From Methanolobus sp. WCC4 (lineage in GTDB: Archaea; Halobacteriota; Methanosarcinia; Methanosarcinales; Methanosarcinaceae): DNA of 64,000 nucleotides. The notes below the pieces were generated by a model. The model was not told the DNA's origin. It saw only the letters and a list, made by a program, of their open reading frames with translations, and did no database searches. Location: positions 1,222,480 through 1,286,479 of the forward strand of contig NZ_CP150629.1 in assembly GCF_038022665.1 (NCBI RefSeq). The letters run 5' to 3'. The position numbers and the translations under genes were made by a program. Positions 11,948-23,231 of the stretch are shown here, piece by piece (the stretch's first letter is position 1; every line of letters begins with the position of its first letter).

Positions 11948-13087
11948 ATGGGAAATATCAGGACATCAGTACTAGTTTCAGTTCTATTCATAACAGTGAC
12001 ATTACTATTCACATCGGCATCATTGGCAGCAACAGGCGCAGGCATGTCAGAGACATCAACGGACTCTGATAACGGAAATTATGAATTCCTGATGGTAAGG
12101 GTCGTCACTCCGGGCTCACTGGAGGTCACGGTTGGTGATACAGTTACCTGGCGTAATCTTCAGCGCCCCAAGATGCCGATAGTTCTTGTGAGCATTGATG
12201 GTCTATGGGATGACCAGGTTATCTACTACGGTAAGATCTTCTCATATACATTTGAAGAGCCCGGAACCTATGCATTCACGGTTGAGGACAATCCTGCTAT
12301 GGCAGGAACTATAGTCGTATCTGAGAAAACGATGCGCTCGGCAGCCGATACATCTGAGGATGAGGGCATGATGGTACCGGAACCTGTGACTATGATGACA
12401 CAGTCTGTCGAACAGGTTCAGAGCCGTATGCAGCAACAGATGATCGATGATCGTAATGAGTTCCTTATCGTCCGCACCCTGACACCCACTTCAATGGAGG
12501 TCTATGCAGGTGAGACCGTCACCTGGCGTAACCTTCAGCGTCCCAAGATGCCTGTGGTGCTCATAAGCGATGAGGGTCTGTGGGATGATGAGACCATCTA
12601 TTATGGTAAGATCTTCTCCTATACCTTTGATGAGCCCGGAACCTATAGTTTCAGTATTCAGGACCATCCTGAGATGGCAGGAACCATTGTGGTCTCAGAG
12701 GAAAGGATGACATCTGTGGAAGATGAGGATATGGATGGGATGATGGTAGCACCCGGGCCTGTAATGATGAAGGAAGGCGAGGAGGTCGGAACCATGGAAC
12801 AGGTCAGGGTACGCGAGATGGAGCAAACGAGGCAATATAACTATGAGTTCCTTCTCGTCCGTGTGGCAACCCCTGAATCGATGGAGATCGAAGCAGGCGA
12901 GACGGTTACATGGAGAAATCTCCAGCGTCCAAAGTTCCCTCTGGTACTTGTGAGTGATGATGGACTCTGGGACGACCAGACCATCTATTATGGTAAGATC
13001 TTCTCCTATACGTTCGAGAATTCAGGAACTTACAAGTTCAGTGTTCAGGGAAATCCTGCAATGGCAGGGACTATCGTTGTAAAATAG
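11948..13087 (+). CDS. secreted protein with three degenerate cupredoxin domains
   Basis: Signal peptide (residues 1-27, ending SLAA), then three tandem copies of an 80-residue cupredoxin-like domain at about 46-124, 171-249 and 300-379, joined by acidic, Met- and Glu-rich linkers. Each copy has VTWRNLQRPK, YYGKIFSYTF and MAGTIVV, the framework of plastocyanin-type beta sandwiches. The usual copper ligands are lost: there is no cysteine at all, the first histidine position reads RPK, and only repeat 2 keeps a His (QDHPEM); the terminal Met is kept. So copper binding is unlikely or of a different kind. It is probably an extracellular structural or binding protein. SD-like GGGAGGAA precedes the ATG. 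Confidence 0.8.
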   Translation: MGNIRTSVLVSVLFITVTLLFTSASLAATGAGMSETSTDSDNGNYEFLMVRVVTPGSLEVTVGDTVTWRNLQRPKMPIVLVSIDGLWDDQVIYYGKIFSYTFEEPGTYAFTVEDNPAMAGTIVVSEKTMRSAADTSEDEGMMVPEPVTMMTQSVEQVQSRMQQQMIDDRNEFLIVRTLTPTSMEVYAGETVTWRNLQRPKMPVVLISDEGLWDDETIYYGKIFSYTFDEPGTYSFSIQDHPEMAGTIVVSEERMTSVEDEDMDGMMVAPGPVMMKEGEEVGTMEQVRVREMEQTRQYNYEFLLVRVATPESMEIEAGETVTWRNLQRPKFPLVLVSDDGLWDDQTIYYGKIFSYTFENSGTYKFSVQGNPAMAGTIVVK

Positions 13088-19677: not shown

Positions 19678-19844
19678 TTTGCTTCCGTTCCTATATACTT
19701 TTTACCACTATTTCTGAGGTGACCCGATTCCCTTGCAGTAGCACTTAAAATATTATTATGGGTATATTATTATGCTATCATATTTTTTGTGATCCGGTAC
19801 ATTTTTTAGTAGGGACTTTATATAAGTACATCTCACAACTGGAC

Positions 19845-20507
19845 ATGTGTATTGGTGGTGGATGCATAGTTAAGGTAAATTCTAATATACTGGAATTCGA
19901 AGATGCCCTTCTATCCCTGAACAGGGTAGCTGCAAAGAACATGGTGCTCGGAGAGTTCACCGGCGATAATGCCTTTGAGATCATAAATGAGATGATCTCC
20001 CCGGCACTTGAAAGTATTGGGGAGATGTGGGCAGACGGTAGGATCGCTCTGTCACAGGAATATATGGCAGGCAGGATATGTGAGGAGCTCGTGGAGATAA
20101 TATTGCCTGTTGACGGACCTACAAGGAAGAATATGCCTGTGATCGGTATTACGACCCTTGGGGATGAGCATATGCTCGGGAAGCGTATTGTCTCTTCTTT
20201 CCTTAAGGCAAATGGATTCAATCTCTTTGATTATGGTGATATGGGACCTGGACCGGTATTACGGAAAGTGAAGGATGATGGCATTGAGGTCCTGATGGTA
20301 TCGACCCTCATGCTCAACCTCGCCTATGGGGTAAAAGAGCTCAGAAATGGTTTTGATAATGAGAATATCAATACAAAGATTATAGTGGGGGGTGCGCCGT
20401 TCCTGTTCGACCGTGACCTGTGGAAAGAGGTTGGTGCAGACGGTATGGCAATTGATGCAATGGGGTCTGTAGAGAAGATCAATGAGGTTCTTGGGGTGTC
20501 ACAATGA
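19845..20507 (+). CDS. MtbC/MtaC-like corrinoid protein
   Basis: A 220-residue two-domain protein: an N-terminal helical cap (about residues 20-90, EDALLSLNRVAAKN and MWADGRIALSQEYMAGRI) and a B12-binding Rossmann domain (98-215). The cobalamin motif is LGDEHMLGKRIV, giving Asp107-x-His109-x-x-Gly112 with His109 as lower axial ligand, plus VSTLM and IIVGGAP. This is the shape of methanogen methyltransferase corrinoid subunits. It overlaps the next gene by four bases (ATGA) and heads an operon with a UroD-family methyltransferase and a histidine kinase. No MtaB/MtbB-type substrate methyltransferase is present. The ATG at 19845 is the best start; one at 19758 adds a Cys-rich, unlikely leader. 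Confidence 0.85.
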   Translation: MCIGGGCIVKVNSNILEFEDALLSLNRVAAKNMVLGEFTGDNAFEIINEMISPALESIGEMWADGRIALSQEYMAGRICEELVEIILPVDGPTRKNMPVIGITTLGDEHMLGKRIVSSFLKANGFNLFDYGDMGPGPVLRKVKDDGIEVLMVSTLMLNLAYGVKELRNGFDNENINTKIIVGGAPFLFDRDLWKEVGADGMAIDAMGSVEKINEVLGVSQ

Positions 20508-21541
20508 GCAGTGGGGAAATGACCTCCATGGAGAGGGTACTGACAACCCTCGGGCATGAAGAACCGGATAGGGTCCCATTCTTCCTGCTACTGACAACTC
20601 AGGGTGCCGATGTTTTCAATGTTTCCATTGAAGAGTATTTCTCAAAGCCTGAGATGGTGGCAGATGCCCAGATAAGGATGCAAAAAAAGTATGGTCATGA
20701 CTGTTATTATTCATTCTATTACGCTTCCATTGAGATCGAGGCATGGGGCGGCAGATCTATATTCTACCCGGACGCATCTCCGAATTGTGGGAGACCGATT
20801 ATCAGGGATATTGAGGATATCACATCTCTGGAAGCTCCTGATGTTTTTGAGTCCCCCCGACTTCAGAATGTCCTGAAAACGACCGCTATCCTGAAAGAAC
20901 ATTCAGGGGAGGATATCCCTATCATAGGTGTTGTTATGTCACCTTTTGCATTACCTCCTATGCAAATGGGCCTTGATCATTATTTCGACCTTATCTATGA
21001 TGAGCCAGAAAAATTCGAAGAACTGATGAAAGTGAACGAAGAGTTCTGTGTTCAGTGGGCAAATACACAACTTGAGGCAGGTGCAACGGCAATATGCTAC
21101 TTTGATCCTGTATCCTCATCAACCATTATTCCGCCGGAACTTTACAGGAAGACCGGTTTCAAGGTAGCAAAAAGAACCATCTCCAGAATAAAAGGTCTTA
21201 CTGCAACCCACATGGCTTCTGGCAGATGTCTTCCCATTATCGATGATATAGCAGAAACGGGAACTGCGGTGATCTGTACCAGTGTTCTTGAGGACCTTTC
21301 TGAGATCAAGGAGGTATCTAAAGGTAAACTATCTGTACTGGGTAACCTTAATGGTATAGAAATGAGGCACTGGTCCCCGCAGGAAACCGAATACAAGGTA
21401 AAGGAAGCAATAAGTAAGGCGGCAGAAGGTGGTGGTTATATCCTTTCGGACAATCATGGAGAGATACCATATACAGTGCCTTCACGAGTCATCACGGACA
21501 TCTCAAAGTCCGTAAACAAATGGGGTAAATATCCGGTTTAG
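20504..21541 (+). CDS. UroD/MtbA-like methyltransferase with altered zinc ligands
   Basis: The 345-residue protein is of the uroporphyrinogen decarboxylase fold used by the corrinoid:coenzyme M methyltransferases MtaA and MtbA: N-terminal MERVLTTLGHEEPDRVPF, then MSPFALPPMQMG, and the C-terminal TIM-barrel strands. In MtaA/MtbA a zinc that activates the thiol is held by His-x-Cys and a later Cys. Here the first motif reads THMASGR (His236, Ala238) and the second LSDNHGEIPY (His318 where Cys is usual). The protein may therefore bind metal differently, use another methyl acceptor, or only bind methyl-corrinoid. It overlaps the corrinoid gene by four bases and is followed four bases later by the kinase gene. 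Confidence 0.85.
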   Translation: MSSGEMTSMERVLTTLGHEEPDRVPFFLLLTTQGADVFNVSIEEYFSKPEMVADAQIRMQKKYGHDCYYSFYYASIEIEAWGGRSIFYPDASPNCGRPIIRDIEDITSLEAPDVFESPRLQNVLKTTAILKEHSGEDIPIIGVVMSPFALPPMQMGLDHYFDLIYDEPEKFEELMKVNEEFCVQWANTQLEAGATAICYFDPVSSSTIIPPELYRKTGFKVAKRTISRIKGLTATHMASGRCLPIIDDIAETGTAVICTSVLEDLSEIKEVSKGKLSVLGNLNGIEMRHWSPQETEYKVKEAISKAAEGGGYILSDNHGEIPYTVPSRVITDISKSVNKWGKYPV

Positions 21542-21545
21542 AAAT

Positions 21546-23231
21546 ATGTTCTACGATCATTATGTCCTTGTTCCTGAATGTATCAGGGAAGAGATCGAGC
21601 ACCTTATAGCTTATGATGTACATCTCAAGGGAATAAAAACTGCATATTTTATGCCATCAAAATCTGTGATCGATGGTAAAGCTATCATTGATATAATCAG
21701 GAATTTAAAATGTGATAATGACATTTTGCTTCTTTGTGAGAGGGCATGTCCTGAGGTATCGATCCCAGAGGGATACTGTGGGTCACTCAAGGTCAACAAT
21801 ATAGGGCACATCTATGATCTTTTTGTTGACAATATGATCCTAAAGGAACATGAGAATGAGGGTACTTTTGTCATAGTGCCGGGTTGGGCTGCTAAATGGG
21901 AAGAGAATCTGCAGTTCATCGACCAGTTCGATGGTGAACCTGACAGACCATTTTCAGATAGATATTCATCTGTTCTTATTCTGGATACCGGACTTCATCC
22001 TGATCTTATCGAAAAGGCAGAGGAATTCTCTGCATATGTCGATGTTCCTTTTAACATTCTTGATGTTGGCCTGGAGCATTTCAAACTGGCCTTTGACAAC
22101 CTGATACTCCAATGGGGTATCGAGAAGAAACAGGAACAATTAAAACTCTGCAATCGTAAGGCAGCCTCATATGCCATGTCTATAGATTTCATAAAGACGA
22201 TAGCAGATCTGACCGATGAGTCTATGGCAATTGATTCTATTTGCAAATTGTTCAGCACGATGTTCGCCCCGAAGAATGTGGTCTACTATTCGTTCCACGA
22301 GGAAGAAATGGATCTTAGATATTGCAGATCCCCCGAATCTGAAAAAGATGCGATAATGCAATTGAAGGATTCTGATGCGAACTATCTTGTTTTCGATACG
22401 GAAGATGGTTTTGCATTGAAGATCATGACCACAGATGATCTTCTGGGTATCATCGAGATACACGGGGTAGCTTTCCCTGAATATCTTGATGAGTATCTTA
22501 GTGTTGGTTATGATCTTGCAAAAGCTTCAGGTCTTGCAATATCCAATATAAGACGTTATCATGAGGTATTCAGGTCCCGTGAGGAACAGGTCAAACTCAG
22601 TGAGCTGCTTCGCAGTACGAATCGTATTCTAAGTCACGATATTGTCAATGACCTTCAGATCATACTTGGGGCACTGGACCTGCTTGAAGAGAACAACGAC
22701 CCTACATTCTTTTCAATGATAAGGAAAGCCGCAAATAAGAGTGTATCACTGATAAAGGATGTGAAGGAGCTGGACCTGTCTTCATCTGATCGGGAGCAAC
22801 TGGTCATTCAGGATGTCCGGCATATCATTGACAGTGTCATAAGCAAATATAATGCCGATCTTAGTGTAAAAGGAAATTGCCTGGTAATGGTGGATAAAGC
22901 TATGGTATCGGTCCTTGATAACCTGGTAAGCAATGCCTTTGTACATGGAAGTGCAAGTAAGGTGGACATCGATATAAAGGAAAGTGGTGGCACATGTGAG
23001 GTCACCGTTGCAGATAATGGCACAGGTGTTCCTGATAATATCAAACAGAAGGTATTCGATGAGGGCTTCAAATATGGAAGTACCGGACACACTGGCTTTG
23101 GACTCTTTATAGCTAAGCAGACTATCGAACGCTACAATGGTTCGATACGTGTAGAGGACAATATGCCATCAGGTGCTAAGTTCGTCATAGAGCTTGCAGC
23201 TGCAGAAACGGATGTGCATATTGTTAATTGA
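21546..23231 (+). CDS. DUF1638-GAF-histidine kinase
   Basis: A soluble 561-residue protein. Residues 1-190 resemble DUF1638 (YVLVPECIREEIEHLI, DILLLCERACPE, TFVIVPGWAAKWEENL), a domain common beside corrinoid methyltransferases. Residues about 210-335 look like a GAF sensor. Then come a dimerisation/phosphoacceptor region with ILSHDIVNDLQ (His364) and an HATPase domain: N box DNLVSNAFVHG, G1 ADNGTGVP, G2 GHTGFGLFIAK. There is no membrane helix and no receiver domain, and no response regulator lies in the window. Position as the third gene after the corrinoid and UroD-type proteins suggests that it reports on their methylation or redox state; this is inference. Confidence 0.85.
   Translation: MFYDHYVLVPECIREEIEHLIAYDVHLKGIKTAYFMPSKSVIDGKAIIDIIRNLKCDNDILLLCERACPEVSIPEGYCGSLKVNNIGHIYDLFVDNMILKEHENEGTFVIVPGWAAKWEENLQFIDQFDGEPDRPFSDRYSSVLILDTGLHPDLIEKAEEFSAYVDVPFNILDVGLEHFKLAFDNLILQWGIEKKQEQLKLCNRKAASYAMSIDFIKTIADLTDESMAIDSICKLFSTMFAPKNVVYYSFHEEEMDLRYCRSPESEKDAIMQLKDSDANYLVFDTEDGFALKIMTTDDLLGIIEIHGVAFPEYLDEYLSVGYDLAKASGLAISNIRRYHEVFRSREEQVKLSELLRSTNRILSHDIVNDLQIILGALDLLEENNDPTFFSMIRKAANKSVSLIKDVKELDLSSSDREQLVIQDVRHIIDSVISKYNADLSVKGNCLVMVDKAMVSVLDNLVSNAFVHGSASKVDIDIKESGGTCEVTVADNGTGVPDNIKQKVFDEGFKYGSTGHTGFGLFIAKQTIERYNGSIRVEDNMPSGAKFVIELAAAETDVHIVN

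Follow-up and report, generated by a model that had tools for sequence, protein, structure and literature searches.

A corrinoid protein and a zinc-less UroD-fold protein as the probable sensory input of DUF1638-GAF receptors in archaea and bacteria

We analysed a 64,000-nucleotide stretch of the Methanolobus sp. WCC4 genome (GCF_038022665.1, contig NZ_CP150629.1, forward strand 1,222,480-1,286,479; hereafter the window) that carries three adjacent genes, encoding a corrinoid protein (COR), a UroD-fold protein (UROD) and a DUF1638-GAF histidine kinase (the receptor), together called the triad (Table 1). The three genes probably form a signal-transduction module, in which COR and UROD would make up a detachable input unit and the state of the corrinoid would be read by DUF1638-GAF; sensor input is the best reading of the COR-UROD pair and is well supported. 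An earlier reading of the sequence alone had proposed a sensor coupled to methyl flux. The sensor proposal is strongly supported in kind, given the gene order, the interchangeable outputs and the signalling neighbours, whereas its chemical detail, a link to methyl flux by chemistry like that of MtaA/MtbA, is not supported: no UROD has the zinc-thiolate site, there are methanogen hosts without detectable MtaA/MtbA, and most of the bacterial hosts tested are without RACo.

A kinase-based search of 186 genomes of the window's order recovered the COR-UROD-kinase order at about 20 loci, even where the flanking genes differed. Scanning 84,980 species genomes with UROD as the only query yielded 80 loci, mostly bacterial, distributed among Desulfobacterota, Chloroflexota, Nitrospirota, Beta- and Gammaproteobacteria, Bacteroidota, Magnetococcales and other groups, with bacterial URODs at 57-64% identity. 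COR lay directly upstream of UROD in 81/81 cases and a DUF1638/GAF gene downstream in 76/81, some of the exceptions being contig ends; because the query was UROD alone, these neighbours constitute an independent observation. The bacterial scan used two peptide patterns, one of which included DNH, and the order-level and phylum-level UROD sets, which are independent of the DNH pattern, gave results that agree. With a UROD profile, UROD was found in 29 of the 393 genomes of the phylum, 14 of them outside the window's family, and all 14 carried the whole triad. The arrangement is not due to chance, because the gene order and the four-base overlap of COR and UROD (55/78 loci) recur across phyla. 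Pairwise distances of COR, UROD and GAF were correlated over 66 loci (rho 0.59-0.64, against a permuted maximum of 0.25), and the correlation among the 54 bacterial loci alone (rho 0.29-0.37) exceeded every permutation. Conservation of the three-gene order in the absence of a substrate methyltransferase had been put forward as a check on the sensor proposal, and we found that order conserved far beyond methanogens. No relatives of the triad were found in the viral contigs searched.

UROD lacks the residues that define its enzymatic relatives. The URO-D match spans residues 7-338, and the best solved structural relative is PDB 4ay7 (2.1e-19), but the protein passes the cut-off of neither TIGR01463 (135.9 against 235.4 bits) nor MtaA_Meth (105.5 against 400 bits) nor the HemE model TIGR01464 (63.4 against 302.95 bits). 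Enzymes of the MtaA/MtbA type (the 4ay7 family) bind zinc through an HxC motif plus a later Cys. In 108 distinct triad URODs, a zinc-ligand Cys was present at neither place (0/108), with HxA and DNHGE found instead, and the first zinc-ligand His is also missing in a few methanogen URODs; the window genome's own MtaA/MtbA, as named by NCBIfam, retain HxC...C. The catalytic Asp of HemE (FSD motif) aligns to Tyr73 in the window's UROD. In a phylogenetic tree, a long branch with good support set the triad URODs apart from MtaA, MtbA, CmuA and HemE; this tree included a truncated pCMU01 UroD on a very long branch, whose placement we disregarded. Two candidate activities were rejected, namely zinc-dependent methyl transfer to coenzyme M, for want of the zinc ligands, and HemE-like decarboxylation, for want of the catalytic Asp.

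Turning to COR, His-on binding of a corrinoid is likely because DxHxxG is kept in 95/96 CORs; the motif, already noted from sequence alone, reads D107-E-H109-M-L-G112 in the window. COR falls below the corrinoid-carrier model TIGR02370 (66.3 versus a cut-off of 215.3 bits), and its cap has W62, S70 and Y73 at positions that are F/Y, P and M/L in the methylamine-type corrinoid proteins of the same genome. A repurposed corrinoid site is the plain reading of COR, with light sensing a minor possibility. One locus has two adjacent COR genes ahead of a single UROD (L050:11472-12113 and 12307-12966, minus strand), and in the outer copy the motif has become DEFLLG, with the cobalt-ligand His replaced by Phe.

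The third gene combines a constant N-terminal half with a variable C-terminal half. Among 56 third-gene proteins scanned, DUF1638 was recognised in 44, HATPase in 38, HisKA in 31, a receiver domain in nine, GGDEF in five and Hpt in two, and several carried PAS insertions; at some loci the gene encodes a GAF-type protein of about 240 amino acids with no recognised output, and signalling genes lie nearby. Residues 225-345 of the window's kinase, a stretch of about 120 residues missed by Pfam, adopt a GAF fold according to an AlphaFold2 model (mean predicted local distance difference test score (pLDDT) 88, from a 58-sequence alignment) and Foldseek, the best matches of which include GAF domains of KdpD, NLH1 and a dual-sensor kinase. 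The HisKA match is weak (21.6 bits, under the 26.9 cut-off); the kinase core is intact, with H364, N459, N463, D490, G492, G494, G517 and G519 invariant in 18 aligned kinases. Modelled alone, DUF1638 gave no significant fold match in the PDB, and a sequence search was also empty. The attachment of DUF1638 to a signalling helix here suggests that this domain is what touches COR. In Phaeobacter, fitness data link a free-standing DUF1638 protein both with a RamA-like protein and with corrinoid methionine synthase (PMC5764234), and a free-standing DUF1638 protein of Ruegeria was more abundant on N-osmolytes (PMC12478193). The free-standing DUF1638 forms of the window's genome were discarded as a functional clue, as they are not adjacent to methyltransferase genes. 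Two loci depart from the usual receptor structure: in L051:8517-10404 (minus strand) the receptor kinase is split in two frames between DUF1638 and GAF, with COR and UROD intact, and in L070:8487-9899 (minus strand), from another genus of the family, the receptor N-terminus cannot be aligned to DUF1638 and the COR-UROD-GAF-kinase order persists.

The neighbours of bacterial triads are mainly receivers and kinases. Of 72 downstream neighbours, 32 had a receiver domain and 18 a kinase domain, and of 70 upstream neighbours 17 had each. The list of the 25 commonest neighbour families contained neither a corrinoid methyltransferase family nor a cobalamin-synthesis family, and no transporter or catabolic partner family was recurrent among the commonest neighbours. 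As for the hosts, no MtaA/MtbA was found at E 1e-60 in the 14 triad genomes outside the window's family, which are presumably non-methylotrophic methanogens; McrA was present in 13 of them, and the one without it (G458) is a draft of about 50 contigs. A RACo-type activase occurred in 3/16 bacterial hosts tested. In most proteobacterial hosts, including Zoogloea, the only UroD proteins were HemE and the triad UROD, and in the complete Desulfonema magnum genome the triad UROD was the only one; many bacterial hosts are draft genomes, in which single absences are weak, and the genomes of Zoogloea ramigera and Desulfonema magnum come from isolates. A distinct operon on plasmid pTs417 of Ca. Thiodictyon syntrophicum (L159:4332-9323) encodes a corrinoid protein, a UroD protein with HxA...C, a RACo activase and a GAF-GGDEF protein, possibly a second, parallel type of corrinoid sensor with an activase.

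In the mechanism that we propose, COR would hold the corrinoid base-off/His-on, and UROD, having lost its coenzyme M-activating zinc site, would sit on COR as a ligand-binding or ligand-presenting partner. UROD may bind a small ligand and either present it to the COR corrinoid or gate access to it. Contact with the small molecule would change the upper ligand or the oxidation state of the cobalt and so alter the contact of COR and UROD with DUF1638, and the GAF dimer and long helix would then switch the fused output, which is a histidine kinase here and a hybrid kinase or diguanylate cyclase elsewhere. Whether the corrinoid state is the signal we consider an even call, and a methyl donor as the stimulus is doubtful; the candidates are a methyl donor, the redox state of the cobalt, a corrinoid ligand and light. 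The chances are similarly balanced that these loci represent a hitherto unrecognised receptor class spanning bacteria and archaea, in which COR and a zinc-less UROD, a pair derived from methyltransferases, sense a small molecule via cobalt chemistry and use a DUF1638-GAF adaptor to connect to kinases or diguanylate cyclases.

Several observations weigh against COR and UROD acting as a sensory input. Of the three proteins UROD shows the strongest conservation, its invariant D66, D201 and N317-H318-G319 are enzyme-like, and it may catalyse some unrecognised reaction; conservation of DNH in the bacterial set arises partly by construction, DNH being in one scan pattern, and the archaeal loci are unaffected by this. 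No COR or UROD fused to a receptor was found among the loci, so we infer physical contact of COR, UROD and receptor from gene order only. Three Cys are shared by the free-standing DUF1638 forms of the genome, at positions corresponding to 10, 68 and 89 of the window's protein, which retains only C68, while most bacterial triads retain all three. The triad on plasmid pAZKH of Azoarcus sp. KH32C (NC_020548, L157:21289-26438), accompanied by a hybrid kinase in which two stretches are receivers, stands between tetrahydromethanopterin one-carbon genes and a pyrroloquinoline quinone (PQQ) methanol dehydrogenase cluster, a position that fits a metabolic role; this methylotrophy island comprises fae, fhcABCD, PQQ methanol dehydrogenase and Calvin-cycle genes. 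It is the single locus that hints at a stimulus, but the general methylotrophy or methanol sensor that it suggested was rejected, as one-carbon genes are not near the other loci and Fae occurs in 1/16 bacterial triad genomes.

The strong conservation of UROD and the Azoarcus copy among methanol-oxidation genes would also suit a catabolic MtpCA/MtsAB-type pathway, in which a single UroD protein accepts the methyl group from a substrate and also hands it on, and the kinase is a co-transcribed regulator. There is a precedent in the four-gene mtpCAP-msrH locus, which includes the corrinoid protein MtpC and the coenzyme M methyltransferase MtpA and is required for growth on methylmercaptopropionate (PMC7374477). 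Such a pathway is nevertheless very unlikely for the triad: the zinc-ligand Cys is missing in 108/108 URODs, some methanogens carry the triad although no MtaA/MtbA was detectable in them, Zoogloea and Desulfonema carry it and have no other UroD methyltransferase, the commonest neighbours include no recurrent transporter or catabolic partner, and the gene after UROD in 76/81 cases encodes DUF1638/GAF, in most instances together with a signalling output.

Two further alternatives retain sensing and change what is sensed. A CarH-like sensor would carry a larger upper ligand, for example adenosyl, and respond to light or oxygen rather than to methyl donors. It draws on the CarH/photocobilin-type domains among the PDB matches of COR and on the Trp of GxxW, present in 95/96 CORs where methyl carriers have F/Y, GxxW belonging to the published four-element signature of B12 photoreceptors (PMC11796333). 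We regard it as unlikely, if somewhat less so than the catabolic pathway, given that the signature lacks its EH part (V/E/I then Tyr stand in its place), that many hosts are sediment anaerobes for which light is implausible, and that UROD would have no obvious role. A photoreceptor of the CarH type proper was rejected on the same half-complete signature, which has GxxW and lacks EH. The least probable of the alternatives is a sensor of corrinoid or tetrapyrrole availability, with UROD binding a tetrapyrrole-like ligand and COR reporting cofactor loading. HemE binds tetrapyrroles, and the DNHG loop of UROD aligns with the GHG of HemE; against this stand the alignment of the catalytic Asp with Tyr73 and the lack of cobalamin-synthesis families among the commonest neighbours. 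A COR-UROD input unit coupled to a DUF1638-GAF receptor remains the reading that we favour.

Table 1. Features of the triad in the window (positions are those of the window; residue numbers are those of each protein)
Feature	Position	Strand	Length	Evidence
COR, corrinoid (B12-binding) protein	19845-20507	+	220 amino acids	Pfam B12-binding_2 and B12-binding; orthologues in all triads
GxxW in cap helix of COR, G59-E-M-W62	20019-20030	+		W in 95/96 family CORs
DxHxxG cobalt-ligand motif of COR, D107-G112	20163-20180	+		D 96/96, H 95/96, G 96/96 family CORs
ATGA at which the COR stop and UROD start overlap, coupling the two genes	20504-20507	+		-4 overlap also in 55/78 loci
UROD, UroD-fold protein	20504-21541	+	345 amino acids	Pfam URO-D, 1.1e-55
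H236-x-A238 of UROD, at the zinc-ligand HxC position of MtaA/MtbA	21209-21217	+		A 107/108, C 0/108, H 103/108
DNHGEIP loop of UROD (316-322), at the GCG third-zinc-ligand position of MtaA/MtbA	21449-21469	+		N317, H318, G319 in 108/108
Receptor kinase, DUF1638-signalling helix-GAF-HisKA-HATPase	21546-23231	+	561 amino acids	Pfam; AlphaFold2 model
DUF1638 domain, about residues 1-175	21546-22070	+		Pfam 101-180 above cut-off (32.6 vs 27 bits); model pLDDT 90
Long signalling helix (177-220) and GAF (225-345)	22074-22580	+		AlphaFold2 model and Foldseek
H364, presumed phospho-accepting His (HDIVND)	22635-22637	+		Invariant in 18 aligned kinases
HATPase_c catalytic domain	22896-23198	+		8.3e-20, 71.7 bits; N and G boxes invariant

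The gene boundaries had been given exactly by the sequence-only reading, including the four-base overlap of COR and UROD and the four bases that intervene before the kinase start, and the profile matches confirm its assignment of a UroD fold to the second protein and of DUF1638 to the start of the kinase (Table 1). The start codon of COR is uncertain, with a second in-frame ATG at 19758 and homology from about 19890. The triad is flanked by unrelated genes, NadA upstream and a DUF1641 protein downstream, and farther neighbours, judged from their translations, read as housekeeping genes for translation factors and ribosomal proteins. Neither a substrate methyltransferase nor a response regulator adjoins the window's triad. 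The reported lack of a response regulator holds for the operon but not for the genome, in which receiver domains occur at about 30 places, none of them beside the triad; the kinases of M. acetivorans are likewise mostly orphans (PMC11784639).

Three Methanolobus genomes are without the whole triad between the same flanking genes, with the neighbouring MASE3-type kinase alone remaining. This membrane histidine kinase (L039:947-2482, minus strand, with MASE3 assigned by Pfam on the L039 copy; similar kinase core, about 42%) has homologues at L040-L044, L046-L047 and L073-L075, lies on the downstream side of the triad of many Methanolobus genomes and is absent from the window. A gamma symbiont of Taylorina has a tandem duplicate of the COR-UROD pair ahead of one receptor gene (L134:5361-8843). 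In L069:10663-11703 (minus strand) UROD has an in-frame TAG at the Trp codon of its relatives, near residue 81, and a related genome has a truncated COR and no UROD (L071:8908-10785); decay is one possible explanation, and readthrough of TAG in a possible pyrrolysine user is another.

Two-component and cyclic di-GMP signalling are known, and what is new here is the input unit; should the signal prove to be cobalt chemistry, the receptor would itself count as categorically new. Organocobalt chemistry would then serve as a chemosensor too, beyond methyl transfer and light sensing, with an enzyme pair turned into an exchangeable receptor. DUF1638 would gain a testable function, the annotation "uroporphyrinogen decarboxylase family protein" in many bacteria would be accounted for, and triad-type UROD genes should not count as evidence of methylotrophy. 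The versions with a diguanylate cyclase would make the stimulus directly screenable in E. coli.

We found no description of a COR-UROD-receptor module in the open-access literature, a scope outside which most subscription papers lie. Among known systems, MtaA/MtbA (PDB 4ay7) share the UroD fold and a corrinoid-protein partner, but their HxC...C zinc site is found in no triad UROD and they form a separate group in the tree. The MtpCAP-msrH system of Methanosarcina also pairs a corrinoid and a UroD protein with an adjoining regulator and no separate substrate methyltransferase; however, it includes a major facilitator superfamily transporter and MsrH, neither of which the window's operon has, whereas the third gene here is a DUF1638-GAF receptor and the triad also occurs in non-methylotrophs and bacteria, setting it apart from MtpA as described. 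CarH and the photocobilins likewise use B12-binding_2 and B12-binding for signalling, with DxHxxG and GxxW and, in some photocobilins, a diguanylate cyclase domain, but they are single-protein sensors with an EH motif, no UroD partner and no DUF1638. The DUF1638 proteins PGA1_c13340 of Phaeobacter inhibens and SPO2162 of Ruegeria, which belong to corrinoid reactivation, have a functional connection with a corrinoid methyltransferase (PMC5764234, PMC12478193); they are free-standing and linked to a RamA-like protein, whereas the DUF1638 of the triad is fused to GAF and an output. Dichloromethane degraders have a mec cassette (MecA, a kinase with PocR; MecB, MecC, MecE, MecI) in which corrinoid and UroD-type proteins accompany a sensor kinase (PMC9768040), but that system, going by its description, is set apart by its PocR sensor domain, its catabolic role and its several methyltransferases. 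Finally, MsmS and RdmS of Methanosarcina acetivorans are cytoplasmic PAS/GAF kinases tied to methyl-sulfide metabolism (PMC6944256), but unlike the receptor of the triad they are heme or thiol sensors, lack an H-box and have no dedicated corrinoid or UroD partners.

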